DNA of 64,000 nucleotides from a virus (IMGVR_UViG_3300017917_002937:1-64000); one strand, 5' to 3'; shown: positions 3,645-24,119, numbered from the stretch's first letter. A program made the numbers and translations. The notes: generated by a model not told the origin, from the sequence alone.

Positions 3645-4010
3645 ATGCTTACTCAACAACCCAATAGGCCTTTTTGCAAGGCATGTAATATATCATTAGC
3701 TAAACCAAATGGTATAAGTAAGCATGGATTTAAAAAATGGCACAAATATTGTGCAAGTTGTGCAAAATTAGTATATAATCCAAATTATGGATATTTAATT
3801 AACAAGAAAAATTTTTGCGAGCGTTGCAACTTTATACCAATGGATAAATGCCAACTCGATGTGATATACAAAGATAATAATAAAAAAAATAAAAACAAAA
3901 AAAATTTACAAACTTTGTGTGCTAATTGCAGTAGATTGTATCGTAAAAATCTACGTGATAAACATAAAAGTATATTTGATATAACAATTGATAGTGATGT
4001 ACGTATTTAG
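3645..4010 (+). CDS. Cysteine-rich HNH-like protein, probably catalytically degenerate (121 aa)
   Basis: The protein has paired cysteines (FCKACN, YCASCAK, CERCN, CANCSRL) and an HNH-like C-terminal half, CQLDVIYKDNNKK... followed by NLQTLCANCSRL. Small phage HNH proteins typically read (L)xHIDGNxxNN...NLxxLCxNCH. Here the catalytic histidine position is Val, and the final NCH is NCS. I infer a zinc-binding protein that has lost nuclease activity, perhaps retaining DNA binding; it is not clearly a homing enzyme. The start is ATG at 3645, directly behind a TATAAATA octamer with no ribosome binding site. Its 3' end overlaps the convergent gene at 4007 by 4 nt. Confidence 0.6.
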   Translation: MLTQQPNRPFCKACNISLAKPNGISKHGFKKWHKYCASCAKLVYNPNYGYLINKKNFCERCNFIPMDKCQLDVIYKDNNKKNKNKKNLQTLCANCSRLYRKNLRDKHKSIFDITIDSDVRI

Positions 4011-4384
4011 GTATGTTGCTTTTCTTCAACAATATAACTATCACTTAATATATTAATAAGTTTTTTAATGTCAGCCCTGTTATCATTTTTAATATAAACA
4101 TTTCTAGCTAGTTGTATAAATTCATCATCAAATTTTTGATACTTTTCACAACGTCTTTTAGCTACTTCAATGTCCCACAATTCATTATTAATATCATAAA
4201 GTTTTGTATATAAATTTAAAACATCATTTGACAATTTTAATTCATCAGAAATAGTTTTAAGTGTAGTGTATTCAATAATAACATTTTTTAGTTTATTAAG
4301 GTCAGTGATTTTTTTAGTTTTAATTTCTAGTATACTTAACTTATCCAATAATTCACCAATACTAACAGGGACATATGTAATCAT
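4007..4384 (-). CDS. DUF6165-like protein (125 aa)
   Basis: The N-terminal signature VSIGELLDKLSILEIKTKKI, followed by a helical region ending DINNELWDIEVAKRRCEK, resembles the DUF6165 family of small helical proteins found in bacteria and marine phages. Function is unknown. No membrane segment or catalytic motif is visible. The gene is convergent with the HNH-like gene (4-nt overlap) and divergent from the gene at 4445. The upstream gap holds a weak GTTAAATA (4391-4398) but no good late octamer on this strand. Confidence 0.55.
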   Translation of the reverse strand: MITYVPVSIGELLDKLSILEIKTKKITDLNKLKNVIIEYTTLKTISDELKLSNDVLNLYTKLYDINNELWDIEVAKRRCEKYQKFDDEFIQLARNVYIKNDNRADIKKLINILSDSYIVEEKQHT

Positions 4385-4444: not shown

Positions 4445-5053
4445 ATGAGAATTAATGAAATTGAACAATTAAACGAAGCCCCAATGGGTTTTATGTCAAA
4501 GCTTGGTAGAAAACTACAAAGTTATGTTCCAGGTACTACTGGAGCCACTGGACAAGCACATCTTGATGTTGGAAATAGAGCCAATGAAATTGAAAAATTA
4601 TTACAACCCTATGTTATAAGAATTGGACAAAACTTACAAAATGTTCCTGCTAGTACAATTGATACATTTCTAAAAATACAAAAACTCCCAAGTATACAAC
4701 ATACACAAAAATCTTATAATTTAAACGATAAAAATACTGCAAAAAACTTGTTTTATAATATTGCACAACAAAGTTACAGCCAAGCCGGTATGCAAGGTGC
4801 ACTGCCAATTGGTAGTACATATGGTACAAAAAATACACCCGTAAAACAAAAAGCACAACCTCAAGCAACTCAACAAGCTAGTAATAAAAGAGGCGAACCT
4901 TCACTAAACTTACCAGCACAATCAAAAAACTTAGATTTTCCTACATTATATCAAGAATTAAAAAATAAACCACTAAGCCAACAACAAGTTGCTATACTTA
5001 AAGTTTTAATCGCAAATAAATCATCACAAGCTGGTACAGGTACTAATCCTTAA
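4445..5053 (+). CDS. Hypothetical phage protein with MRINEIEQLNEA N-terminus (202 aa)
   Basis: I do not recognise a function. The N-terminus MRINEIEQLNEAPMGFMSKLG is of a kind seen at the start of several small T4-like aquatic phage proteins. The middle (residues ~60-110) is helical. Residues ~125-165 are Gln/Ala/Pro/Lys-rich and probably disordered, and a short helical C-terminus follows. It is preceded by AGGG and a late-promoter octamer, so it is probably a late protein. Its stop overlaps the stop of the convergent LamG-like gene by 4 nt. Confidence 0.6.
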   Translation: MRINEIEQLNEAPMGFMSKLGRKLQSYVPGTTGATGQAHLDVGNRANEIEKLLQPYVIRIGQNLQNVPASTIDTFLKIQKLPSIQHTQKSYNLNDKNTAKNLFYNIAQQSYSQAGMQGALPIGSTYGTKNTPVKQKAQPQATQQASNKRGEPSLNLPAQSKNLDFPTLYQELKNKPLSQQQVAILKVLIANKSSQAGTGTNP

Positions 5054-19839: not shown

Positions 19840-21816
19840 TTACTCAAGTTCAGTGCTAGTAGCATAAGTTGAAAAGCCATTTTCTTTTATTACTTTTAAA
19901 ACACTATTTACCCTCATAGCTAGTTCGTCTTTATGACTAATTAACCAAATGGACTTTTGTCTACGGCGTGACATATCTTTTAAGATACTTATAGAATTTT
20001 CCATTCCAATAGCATCCGTGCCGTTATCTAGTAACTCGTCAATAAACAATACATTAATTGGACTATATAAATTTTCCCAAACATCACGAAATGCCCAAGA
20101 CAGCGACAAAATTAATCTATTCATTTCTCCCCTTGAAAGATTATAGAAGTCCATTTCACGACCTAGTTCTGTAATTTCTACTTGTAAATCATTTTTAAAT
20201 ACAACCTGATGTGGTAATCCAATCTTATCTAAGTAATGTGTTAATCGTGAATTCAAATAACTTAAATTTTGGTCAATAATTTTCTTACGTACAAAACTAT
20301 CTTTACTTGTTAATAAATCTAATAAGAACTTTTGATGTTCCATTGTTCTAGTGATTTTATTAATCTTATCAAAATTAACTTCCTGTAATGCTTGACTTTC
20401 CATCTCATTGATTTGTTCTTGATATGGATCAGTCTCATTACTTTTATCTTCAATCTGTTTAATAATTGTTTCAATTTGACTGCTATGTTTAATAGCTTCA
20501 GCCTCAGTTTGATAATATGTGACTGGTTTATCAATCACAGTAACTGGAACTTTTATTAATTCGTCTAATTGAAACTTATAATCATCAAGTAAATTTTTAC
20601 TCTCTACCAATGAATTATATTTACTTTCTAGTACACTAGTGTGCTGTTTATCATGCAATTCATGCCCACAAGTATAACATTTGTGATCTTTTAGTGTGTT
20701 AACTTCAGTTTCTAGTTTTTTGTAATCTTTTTCTTCTTTGGCAATATCTTTTTTAAGACTTGCAACCTTACTATCATATGAGATTTTTAACAAAACTTGT
20801 TGATTATATATGGCTAAATCTTTGTGTGCTTGTAATTCTATTTCAATATCTATTTGACTTAATCTAGTATATTGAATAGCTAGATTTTCTAAATCTTCGT
20901 TATGTTTTGTTTTCCAAAGTTTTTGTCTGCGCTTAGTGCTTTCAATTTGTTCTTTAACACGCTTATTTGCTTCTTCTACGGCTTTAACACGAAATTCTTC
21001 TTGTTGGATATCATCTTTGCTCTGACGTATGAGGTCTTTAATAACATCAGCCTTTTCACTTAGTAAGGTGATACCAAGTAATTGTTCAATAATAGCACGT
21101 TGATCGTTTGCTTTAAGTGCTAAGAAGGGTTCGCTGTAAGTATTAAGGGCGACAATATGCCGAAACATATCACTAGACATATTAACAGTGCGTTCAATGA
21201 AACTCTGTGTTTCCTTGTTCTCGCCCTGTGCATCATCCTGCGTTTTCTGTAATTTATTGTCAACATAAAATTTTAGTATGTTAGGTTTACGACCACGTTC
21301 AATCTTATAGTCTGTACCATTTACGTTAAAATCTAATGTAACTAACATACCTTTACTATTGGTACGATTTACAAGATTATCCTTACGTATATTATTTATT
21401 GGTACACCAAATAATGCATAACATAACCCTTGGATTAAGGTTGTGTTATGTGACAGTATTTCGTTAGTGTAATATCTATGGTCAGGTGAATCAACGGTAA
21501 TATCGTACATGTTTTCTTCTCTAGTCGAAGAAGTAATTGTGTGTACCTTTTCAATTCCTGATGAAGTTAATATATGTGATTTATAAGGAATTAAGTTTTT
21601 TACAAATATTTCTGTAGCATTATCAGTGAAAACAATATGATCGTCAGCACATTCTAGCTGTTTTCCTGTTTCTGTTTCTATTGTCCAAACAGTATAAGGT
21701 ATTGTTTTGTGTATTTTGGAAATTGGCTTCCAACCAGTATCAGTTTCTATTTCTAAATTATTTAAATTTAGACTTTCTATGAATTTTCTTTTTACTGATT
21801 CAGAAAGTTTATGCAT
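19840..21816 (-). CDS. 46: gp46 C-terminal half with N-terminal split-intein fragment (IntC)
   Basis: Residues 1-124 are an intein C-fragment. It contains a block-B-like LECADDHIVF, block F (MYDITVDSPDHRYYTN) and block G ending LSHN(124), with Thr125 as the first extein residue. The extein then resumes as TTLIQGLCYALFG, the second half of the Walker A helix of the Rad50/SbcC-like ATPase gp46. Coiled coil follows, with a zinc hook CYTCG near residue 375, an ABC signature NLSRGEMNRLILSLSW and Walker B INVLFIDELLDNG near 585. It can act only after trans-splicing to the 50-residue extein encoded by the N-half gene at 23109, giving about 584 aa. AAGGAA (21827-21832) precedes its own ATG, which lies inside the end of the endonuclease gene (25-nt overlap). 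Confidence 0.92.
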   Translation of the reverse strand: MHKLSESVKRKFIESLNLNNLEIETDTGWKPISKIHKTIPYTVWTIETETGKQLECADDHIVFTDNATEIFVKNLIPYKSHILTSSGIEKVHTITSSTREENMYDITVDSPDHRYYTNEILSHNTTLIQGLCYALFGVPINNIRKDNLVNRTNSKGMLVTLDFNVNGTDYKIERGRKPNILKFYVDNKLQKTQDDAQGENKETQSFIERTVNMSSDMFRHIVALNTYSEPFLALKANDQRAIIEQLLGITLLSEKADVIKDLIRQSKDDIQQEEFRVKAVEEANKRVKEQIESTKRRQKLWKTKHNEDLENLAIQYTRLSQIDIEIELQAHKDLAIYNQQVLLKISYDSKVASLKKDIAKEEKDYKKLETEVNTLKDHKCYTCGHELHDKQHTSVLESKYNSLVESKNLLDDYKFQLDELIKVPVTVIDKPVTYYQTEAEAIKHSSQIETIIKQIEDKSNETDPYQEQINEMESQALQEVNFDKINKITRTMEHQKFLLDLLTSKDSFVRKKIIDQNLSYLNSRLTHYLDKIGLPHQVVFKNDLQVEITELGREMDFYNLSRGEMNRLILSLSWAFRDVWENLYSPINVLFIDELLDNGTDAIGMENSISILKDMSRRRQKSIWLISHKDELAMRVNSVLKVIKENGFSTYATSTELE

Positions 21817-22880
21817 TTGTTGATTATTCCTTGTTTGTCTTTTTTGTATTCCGACTCCCAGATTATTAATACAGTGTACCCATCATCATTAAGTAACTTT
21901 ATTTTTTGACGGTCATGATCCCATATTTTTTCTGCGGTTGTTTTTTTTATGACATCTGTGGCTTTAAATTTGTTAGGATTGGCATGCCAATAGTCACCAT
22001 AGAACTCTATAATTTTTTTTTGTAGAACATCAATACAATCTATAGAGTATGACATATTGTTTATTCTTAATACAACCTCATTATAACCAAACTTTATATT
22101 TGGGATATTGCATTTTATGGATTCAAACAACTCAAGTGATATTTTTGAAAATCCACCATGTAATCCCGATTTTTTTAAAGAAGACAGCCATTTAATTTGT
22201 CGTTCGCTCCAAATTTGTAATCCTTTTTCTTCTCCATATTTTTCAACACATTTTTTTTGTGAAAATAAAGTTTGAGCTTCTGTAACTTTGTTTGTTGCTT
22301 CTTCTTTTGAATAGCCTCGTAACATCCAATACTCAATAGTACGATGACTATGTGCTCTTATACGGTTAACATTTCTGTTTTTTGATGCTTTCGCTCCCAT
22401 GCTATTATTAAAGTTTTTTTGATTTTGTGCCAAAAATAAGGCGATTTCATCATCGTACCCTTTATTAATCCAATATTCTTTTCTTATAGGTCTTCTAGAA
22501 TTTCTTTCAAACTCAGCCTCGGCGAATGTATATTTTTTTCCTGTTTTAGGATTAATTCTGTCTGTCCAAAAATTAATAGAGTAAGTGCTTTTTCTTACTG
22601 TTTTACTATTAATGTCCTTCATACACATTTTAGCCTTAATTTCTGCTGACAGTTCGTCCCAACCCCTACTAAGCCAATATTTTTTTCCTCCCTTACCTAC
22701 TCCAGGTAAGGTTAGCATATTTTGTCTTACAATGGCTTCACATTTTTTAACACTAGTTATGTCAACATGACATAACAATTTTTCTCTAATTGATGCCATG
22801 AGGTTAGGTTCTATGTTTTTAATAATTTCTATCAATGTTTTATCTATTATTTGGGTCAGTGTAAATTTTGGCTGCTTCAT
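21792..22880 (-). CDS. Vsr-like (EDxHD-type) homing endonuclease between split-intein halves
   Basis: 362 aa. The C-terminal ~130 residues have the Vsr-related nuclease pattern YSIDCIDVLQKKIIEFYGDYWH, then WDHDRQKIKLLNDDGYTVLIIWESEY (in part: DxxRxxxLxxxGYxVLxIWE). Upstream are repeated Trp-containing modules: KKYWLSRGW, KEYWINKGYDDE and IEYWMLRGYSKEEA, then KKCVEKYGEEKGLQIWSERQIKW. This architecture is that of free-standing endonucleases found in fractured phage genes. It is translated in its own frame with GGGAGAA (22885-22891) as ribosome binding site. Its start overlaps the gp46 N-half by 41 nt and its end overlaps the C-half by 25 nt. It presumably cuts gp46 alleles lacking the insertion at the Walker A site. 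Confidence 0.88.
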   Translation of the reverse strand: MKQPKFTLTQIIDKTLIEIIKNIEPNLMASIREKLLCHVDITSVKKCEAIVRQNMLTLPGVGKGGKKYWLSRGWDELSAEIKAKMCMKDINSKTVRKSTYSINFWTDRINPKTGKKYTFAEAEFERNSRRPIRKEYWINKGYDDEIALFLAQNQKNFNNSMGAKASKNRNVNRIRAHSHRTIEYWMLRGYSKEEATNKVTEAQTLFSQKKCVEKYGEEKGLQIWSERQIKWLSSLKKSGLHGGFSKISLELFESIKCNIPNIKFGYNEVVLRINNMSYSIDCIDVLQKKIIEFYGDYWHANPNKFKATDVIKKTTAEKIWDHDRQKIKLLNDDGYTVLIIWESEYKKDKQGIINKCINFLNQ

Positions 22881-23109
22881 ATAATTCTCCCATAGTTATA
22901 GAGCATATCTCACCTGTGAGAGTGTTTCTTACTCTAACTATAGTATTTATCCCAACGCACTTACCAGTACCATTACGTGCACCGTCACCACCTAAGTCTA
23001 AGTTCTCACCTAATATTAGTGTTAACTCTTTTCTATCAAAGTTTACTGCTTGTGTGACTTGTCCAATAGACAAAAAATTACGCAAGGTTATATTTTTTAG
23101 TGTTATCAT
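22840..23109 (-). CDS. 46: gp46 N-terminal half with C-terminal split-intein fragment (IntN)
   Basis: 89 aa. Residues 1-50 are the gp46 N-terminus, ending GGDGARNGTGK(50), the first part of the Walker A loop. Cys51 (codon 22959-22957) starts the intein: CVGINTIVRVRNTLTGE, whose Cys-(V)-x-G-x-T pattern is a normal block A. The frame stops after residue 89, giving an N-fragment of only 39 residues, much shorter than the ~100 of common split inteins. Its ATG overlaps the gp47 stop (ATGA), so it is translationally coupled to gp47 as in other T4-like phages. Alone it has no ATPase core. Confidence 0.92.
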   Translation of the reverse strand: MITLKNITLRNFLSIGQVTQAVNFDRKELTLILGENLDLGGDGARNGTGKCVGINTIVRVRNTLTGEICSITMGELYEAAKIYTDPNNR

Positions 23110-24119
23110 AGTGTGTTATAGATATCCAATAATAATTTTTTATCAAAACTATTACTTTCAATAGCGTTAATCTGATCTACGATGATTTGGTCAACGCTTT
23201 CAAATTTCAGTCCCTCAAAATTACCTTGGTCAACATTTTCTAATTTCATTGGTATTAATGTCATTTCACGTAGTTTGTATTCGGGAATAAATGTTTCACG
23301 TAGAAAGTTAGCTTCTTCATAACTTATATCAATATCTAGGTGTACCCTAACATGGCTATCAATTAATAGCAAGCCCTGTGGATTATCTAATATATCGCTA
23401 AGTTTATGTACACGGTATACAGGTTGTCTTGGCCAACTATGAAAAACAGGGTCTTTACCCCATTCTAATATCATCATACCACGTGCATCATCACCTGCGT
23501 CAGCATAATTATGCGGGAAAGCGTTACCTATATACCAAATATTTTTACGTGCTTGTCGTTTATGAAAATGTCCACTGAAAGCACTTTCAAAACCAACAAA
23601 ATGTTCTTCATTAATTTCGCCATGATCTGGCATCTCTACCATAGCATTCATATAAAAATGAGGTAATTCTAAATGTCCAAACAAATATTTACCTGACATT
23701 TTTTTGATTTTCTTGTAGTCATCCTGTACTAACCATGGACAAATAACTACATCATCTTGTTTAAAAAAATCATTAACAATGTGTACATTTGGTAAGTGAT
23801 TAGCCCATTCTACACTATGAATGTCACGACGGTCACGATAATATAAGTCATGGTTGCCTGGAATAAAATATACTTGGCTAAAGTTTTGATTTAGTTTTTC
23901 TAATGCTTTTAATCCAAATTGTAATGTTTGGATGTTTATACTAGCACGATGATGATTATAGTCACCTAAAAAGAAACAAGTATCACATTGTTCCTTTTTA
24001 GCTTTATCTATGAACCAATCAACAAAGTTAGCACAATCAATATTGTGCTGTAAACTATTTGACTTTAAACCGAAATGCACGTCGGTAAAAATTGCTGCCT
24101 TTTTAAATAAATTACTCAT
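23106..24119 (-). CDS. 47: Recombination nuclease subunit gp47 (Mre11/SbcD-like)
   Basis: 337 aa metallophosphoesterase. Expected metal-binding motifs appear in order: FTDVHFG, FFLGDYNHH, IPGNHDLYYRD, GHLELPHF and FSGHFHKRQ. With gp46 it makes the Mre11-Rad50-type complex that resects DNA ends for recombination-dependent replication and host-DNA breakdown. The length is like T4 gp47 (339 aa). Its stop overlaps the ATG of the gp46 N-half. No late octamer lies upstream, which fits early or middle expression. Confidence 0.94.
   Translation of the reverse strand: MSNLFKKAAIFTDVHFGLKSNSLQHNIDCANFVDWFIDKAKKEQCDTCFFLGDYNHHRASINIQTLQFGLKALEKLNQNFSQVYFIPGNHDLYYRDRRDIHSVEWANHLPNVHIVNDFFKQDDVVICPWLVQDDYKKIKKMSGKYLFGHLELPHFYMNAMVEMPDHGEINEEHFVGFESAFSGHFHKRQARKNIWYIGNAFPHNYADAGDDARGMMILEWGKDPVFHSWPRQPVYRVHKLSDILDNPQGLLLIDSHVRVHLDIDISYEEANFLRETFIPEYKLREMTLIPMKLENVDQGNFEGLKFESVDQIIVDQINAIESNSFDKKLLLDIYNTL

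Follow-up and report, generated by a model that had tools for sequence, protein, structure and literature searches.

The window analysed here is a 64,000-nt stretch of an 85,171-bp uncultured virus contig. The phage is T4-like and large, with a gp23-like head protein, a gp20-like portal and a gp55-like late sigma factor, and its nearest isolates by gp46 and gp47 are the Pseudomonas PA5oct/MIJ3-type phages. On the minus strand of the window, gp47 is followed by gp46, which is present as two pieces with a further ORF between them. The features of this region are as follows.

23106..24119, minus strand: gp47, the SbcD/Mre11-like nuclease subunit (PHROG 100, E 3e-62)
23109-22840, minus strand: ORF1, 89 aa, made up of 50 aa of gp46 ending GTGK and 39 aa of intein (CVGINTIVRVRN...DPNNR), then a stop
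22960..23109, minus strand: gp46 N-extein, 50 aa, whose GARNGTGK end is the first half of Walker A (PHROG 77 positions 295-333)
22840..22959, minus strand: IntN, 39 aa, with intein blocks A and N2 and Cys1, plus the stop codon (TIGR01445 score gain when joined to IntC)
22887..22890, minus strand: Shine-Dalgarno core GGAG, 6 nt before the endonuclease ATG and within IntN codons
22840..22880, minus strand: 41-nt overlap of the IntN and endonuclease ORFs
21792..22880, minus strand: ORF2, the predicted homing endonuclease ORF, 362 aa, in the +1 frame relative to IntN and IntC
22145-21795, minus strand: Vsr-like nuclease part of ORF2, residues about 246-362 (predicted fold)
21828..21831, minus strand: Shine-Dalgarno core AGGA, 11 nt before the IntC ATG
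21792..21816, minus strand: 25-nt overlap of the endonuclease and IntC ORFs
21816-19840, minus strand: ORF3, 658 aa, made up of 124 aa of intein ending LSHN and 534 aa of gp46 from TTLIQG
21445..21816, minus strand: IntC, 124 aa, with blocks B, N4, F and G and a Ser-His-Asn end (PF14890, 1.5e-6; VidaL is the best PDB match)
19840..21444, minus strand: gp46 C-extein, 534 aa from TTLIQG, the second half of Walker A, plus stop (PHROG 77 positions 334-952, E 4e-83)
21445..22959, minus strand: inserted cassette, 1515 bp, missing with an exact junction in intein-less relatives

All three ORFs lie where a sequence-only reading of the window had placed them; ORF1 and ORF3 share one frame and ORF2 occupies the +1 frame. 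ORF1 translates as gp46 residues ending GARNGTGK, then CVGINTIVRVRNTLTGEICSITMGELYEAAKIYTDPNNR and a stop codon, and ORF3 as MHKLSESVKRKF...NEILSHN (124 aa), then TTLIQGLCYALFG and the remaining gp46. Both the break after GTGK with a stop 39 codons on (50 + 39 aa in ORF1) and the resumption at TTLIQG after 124 codons ending LSHN had been described in that reading and are found here. The profile of the SbcC-like subunit, PHROG 77, aligns its positions 295-333 on ORF1 residues 1-50 and 334-952 on ORF3 residues 125-651; it is therefore continuous over the break, with nothing missing. The exteins sum to 50 + 534 = 584 aa, in agreement with the ~584 aa predicted for a spliced gp46. The neighbouring gp47 overlaps the gp46 start by 4 nt and lies outside the cassette. 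No further inteins and no other copies of the endonuclease were found in the 85-kb record. Elsewhere in the window, positions 36749-56944 on the plus strand form a single 6731-aa ORF with marginal Pfam matches below cut-off (FG-GAP_2, E1_FCCH).

The same three-part order and junctions are present in the independent contigs L003 and L004, and a 99% identical contig from another sample, L002, carries the 3′ part of the arrangement. Chance and an assembly error, the latter a concern raised with the sequence-only reading, were rejected on the independent agreement of these contigs (L002 in part) and on the layout shared by 45 non-redundant fractured loci. Nor is there a continuous frame: across the insert the gp46 frame of the window holds 46 stops, as compared with 44.6 +/- 3.5 in synonymous shuffles, so nothing keeps this frame open.

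Layout statistics were collected over the 45 fractured loci. Relative to IntN, 43 of them have the endonuclease in the +1 frame; its ORF overlaps that of IntN in 39, and in 33 it stops exactly 25 nt inside the IntC ORF, the same overlap length as in the window. Shine-Dalgarno cores precede 28 of the 45 endonuclease starts and 19 of the 45 IntC starts, as against 6.3% of internal ATGs. For the window, clear Shine-Dalgarno sites had been claimed at both downstream ORFs; the GGAG of the endonuclease is indeed clear, and the AGGA of ORF3, at 11 nt, is only acceptable. The layout fits three separately initiated proteins, the translation of which may be coupled.

The two intein segments are recognizable by profile and by structure. 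The PF14890 match of IntC on its own (1.5e-6) stays under the curated cut-off, and placing the 39-aa IntN in front of IntC raises the TIGR01445 score from 20.7 to 26.0 bits, over that profile's cut-off of 24.5 bits. Among solved chains, the window halves come closest to VidaL, which is an atypically split intein (E 4e-5), and next to engineered CatC and gp41-1. The splicing residues are all present in the window: the nucleophile Cys1, the block B His (ADDH), the SHN terminus and Thr+1. Across 15 relatives there is no variation in block B Ala-Asp-x-His, block F Met-x-Asp or the terminal Ser-His-Asn, and all 71 non-redundant loci counted have Thr or Ser at +1; IntN is 35-85% alike in relatives. 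The intein fold was predicted for a relative that is contiguous in nature, the intein in the terminase of L186 (54% identity to the window in the IntC part), and this model (pLDDT 88) has VidaL as its top match (E 1.3e-10, TM 0.84 by target length), with many other inteins matching as well. The L186 model and the match of the window sequence to VidaL together predict a HINT-fold intein for the window halves. A failure to match intein profiles, which would have counted against split intein halves, did not occur, and the proposal that such halves divide Walker A is borne out by profile, structural and comparative evidence. Block N2 and the first helix precede the break and block B follows it, and the short IntN with its split close to the N-terminus makes this an atypically split intein. 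Published natural atypical splits have an IntN of 15-37 aa (PMC13014065), a range that the 39 aa of the window slightly exceeds. The gp46 parts on either side are under purifying selection (dN/dS 0.05-0.15).

The Vsr-like endonuclease expected between the halves, in a frame of its own, corresponds to ORF2. Foldseek comparison of its predicted fold returns Vsr (1cw0/1vsr, probability 1.00) and I-Bth0305I (3r3p, probability 0.99), with E-values that are modest (0.04-0.16) despite the high probabilities, and its profile matches are weak (MTES_1575/DUF559/Vsr). Residues D281, E292, H299 and E342 are invariant in 30 relatives. From the predicted fold and these invariant acidic and His residues, we assign ORF2 as a Vsr-like/EDxHD-type homing endonuclease; the remainder of the protein is a helical region taken to be putative DNA-binding. 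A dN/dS of 0.16 between the window and L003 indicates purifying selection on the endonuclease. The L004 endonuclease carries two one-base insertions in A-runs, and both gp46 halves at that locus are intact.

A T5orf172/MUG113-like domain, of the GIY-YIG superfamily, replaces the Vsr-like one in four relatives (L031:2214-3269, L034:3987-5282, L153:3974-5005 and L177:2539-3615). Residues 20-235 of the window endonuclease are 48% identical to L031/L032. The nuclease domain has been swapped at the same insertion site. Between gp47 and the intact gp46 of the intein-less relative L009 lies a free-standing endonuclease, apparently HNH-type (L009:4965-5780), with 37% identity to residues 98-235 of the window endonuclease.

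In intein-less relatives gp46 is uninterrupted at the exact junction, reading GTGKTT or near variants (GTGKTS, GVGKTT, GTGKSS). The intact alleles sought by the sequence-only reading are thus available and join GTGK to TT exactly, and several are 94-98% identical to the window over the N-extein. That reading had also valued the locus as a complete example; it is not a rare one, as at least 36 gp46 loci carry an intein of the window family. IntC is matched strongly at 71 non-redundant loci. The exteins are gp46 in 36 of these, of which 32 are fractured by an endonuclease-sized insert (~1 kb) at the same codon, 2 are split with little or nothing between and 2 have no visible IntN. Extein identity between gp46 lineages with the fractured arrangement goes down to about 20%. 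The gp46 loci L163 and L187 are still split though the endonuclease is gone, with a 72-nt gap and one stop in the former (4671-5050) and a 4-nt gap with IntN and IntC in different frames in the latter (3650-4260).

The other exteins include many terminase large subunits and some DnaB-type helicases or AAA+ ATPases. In nearly all loci the interruption follows the Walker A lysine (GTGK, GSGK, QSGK, QAGK and so on), so that one splicing family repeatedly occupies the P-loop of different phage NTPases, between GK and T/S. Cultured phages are represented: intein relatives are contiguous in the terminase genes of Ackermannviridae (L116, L224), and in Salicola phage SCTP-2 a separate, annotated gene for the C-terminal part of terminase opens with an IntC of the window family (L225:2992-3885), for which no IntN partner was located. 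Two other cultured phages were rejected: Caulobacter phage Cr30 as a fractured example, where the related endonuclease is free-standing beside an intein-less terminase, and Pseudomonas PA5oct, where the endonuclease match is at another locus. The terminase of L034 (3650-7398) is broken twice, by a window-family intein between GK and T and by a downstream AceL-TerL-like split intein, and its three polypeptides would need two splicing events. The IntC tree is poorly resolved (22 of 76 inner branches are well supported), so the order of architecture changes cannot be recovered from it.

The insert is less diverged than the surrounding gp46 at synonymous sites (p 1e-9 to 1e-13 overall). Between the window and L003, 77/286 synonymous differences are counted in the endonuclease and IntC and 176/348 in gp46 (p 1.4e-9); between the window and L004, the corresponding values are 29/103 in IntN and IntC and 231/345 in gp46 (p 3e-12). 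Insert and gp46 therefore differ in age, and the cassette has moved between diverged gp46 alleles. This pattern supports horizontal spread of the cassette as homing predicts, and other horizontal recombination would look alike.

We are confident that the locus is best described as a mobile split-intein cassette in a fractured gp46: three proteins would be made, two of them would trans-splice into a 584-aa gp46, and the 1515-bp cassette would spread by homing. In this model, chained overlapping starts would give gp46N-IntN, a Vsr/EDxHD-type homing endonuclease and IntC-gp46C. IntN and IntC would associate into one HINT-fold intein and excise themselves by way of Cys1, the block B His, the terminal His-Asn and Thr+1, joining Lys50 to Thr51 and so restoring Walker A (GARNGTGKTT) in a 584-aa gp46. 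Where a gp46 allele lacks the intein, the endonuclease would cut it close to the codons of Walker A, and repair of the cut allele would copy the 1.5-kb cassette into it. That active gp46 can arise only through trans-splicing, as stated earlier, is strongly inferred from the sequence and was not observed.

Splicing would be dispensable if gp46 worked as two non-covalently assembled chains, in the manner of the homing-endonuclease-split nrdA of phage Aeh1, and split phage enzymes that assemble without splicing are on record (PMC2988022). In gp46, however, intein residues would then remain inside the Walker A loop of both chains and part GK from TT, and such an assembly would not require the splicing residues, yet all of these are conserved across the gp46 loci; we regard it as very improbable. 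Less credible still is that the broken gene is a pseudogene and that the phage uses another gp46 or none; we give this the lowest probability of the alternatives. The coding sequence is broken, and the record covers 85 kb of the phage genome, but neither gp46 part is truncated, purifying selection acts on both, and many gp46 lineages, with extein identity as low as about 20%, retain the arrangement.

A single long precursor could also be made by two ribosomal frameshifts, from IntN into the endonuclease and from there into IntC, and be spliced in cis. The three ORFs do overlap, ORF1 and ORF3 have a common frame, and the relatives L033 and L180 keep one continuous frame. Against this stand the 46 stops in the gp46 frame of the window, no fewer than in shuffles (44.6), and the own starts and ribosome sites of both downstream ORFs. 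L163 and L187 are split although no endonuclease lies between their halves for a ribosome to shift into, and the endonuclease frame of L004 is broken; these cases argue that the halves act without read-through. For the window we rejected the frameshifted precursor on its stops and on the endonuclease-less splits, and its overall probability is as slight as that of non-covalent assembly.

Continuous frames do occur in the inteins of two terminase lineages outside the window. In L033 (1484-4516, a 1010-aa ORF) the intein frame is open across an intact out-of-frame endonuclease (1830-2786), and in L180 (4107-5369), as well as in L182 and L179, it likewise runs uninterrupted through a complete +1-frame endonuclease (4186-5022 in L180). 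The open frame contains 0 stops in both L033 and L180, where 19.2 +/- 2.9 and 15.8 +/- 2.5, respectively, are expected from synonymous shuffles, and none of 2000 shuffles reached 0. The simplest reading of these frames is that selection keeps a cis-splicing precursor free of interruptions while an endonuclease is overprinted on it. In L181 (4794-5369) the L180 intein lacks about 690 bp of the endonuclease region, in frame, leaving a contiguous mini-intein. The nearest published case found is the ShiLan domain, an out-of-frame HNH in a methylase with no intein (PMC11855218). Both hide an endonuclease in another frame while the host frame stays open (PMC11855218); the ShiLan domain is without an intein, whereas L033 and L180 are inteins, and the window itself does not keep its frame open.

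We lean towards the view that one intein family at phage NTPase P-loop codons switches among four states: (i) a contiguous mini-intein, (ii) a contiguous intein with an overprinted +1 endonuclease, (iii) a fractured gene with an endonuclease and (iv) a split left after endonuclease loss. If this is true, inteins would have a means of carrying an endonuclease not described before, by overprinting in the +1 frame, and this would naturally link contiguous to split inteins. The overprinting in L033 and L180 bears on the origin or reversion of fractured genes. A single family here offers natural intermediates in which an endonuclease gene breaks a gene and splicing would keep the protein whole. It also supplies a large set of natural short-IntN split inteins, sought as protein-ligation tools, which sit where repair and packaging ATPases have their most critical codons. 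How the element spreads can be tested through its layout (+1 frame, 25-nt overlap) and through the exchange of nuclease domains.

Fractured genes with split inteins and Vsr-related endonucleases were reportedly described by Dassa and colleagues in 2009 (NAR 37:2560), a study cited in PMC13014065 and PMC6892783. As in that set, a phage enzyme gene in the window is broken by a split intein: the halves of a conserved gene are fused to complementary intein parts, with a free-standing endonuclease gene between them, which in the 2009 set is reportedly often Vsr-related. The window locus is therefore a member of an arrangement already known since 2009. The 2009 inteins are reportedly split at the usual endonuclease site and have a long IntN, in contrast to the 39 aa of the window. 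Candidate variant features of the window locus are its split between N2 and B, its site in the P-loop of gp46, the rules by which its ORFs overlap and the exchange of nuclease domains. In the literature searched for gp46 with an intein, no fractured gp46 was found.

The intein parts themselves resemble VidaL, AceL-TerL, GOS-TerL and PolB16 OarG in combining a short IntN with a long IntC, and AceL-TerL and GOS-TerL are split after the first helix, as is the window intein. It differs from these atypically split inteins in its host gene and in an IntN two residues longer than the published range; in the window an endonuclease gene lies between the halves. ORF2 shares the nuclease fold of the I-Bth0305I/EDxHD homing endonucleases (3r3p, probability 0.99), with a long helical region before the nuclease. 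I-Bth0305I resides in a group I intron, whereas ORF2 sits in a split intein and its activity is predicted. In the related jumbo phage MIJ3 a fractured PolB gene with an endonuclease has been reported (PMC6892783). The split DNA polymerase B of MIJ3 thus has the broken gene and the endonuclease in common with the window, and differs in its HNH endonuclease, its PolB host, its Ser1 intein and its canonical split (PMC6892783).
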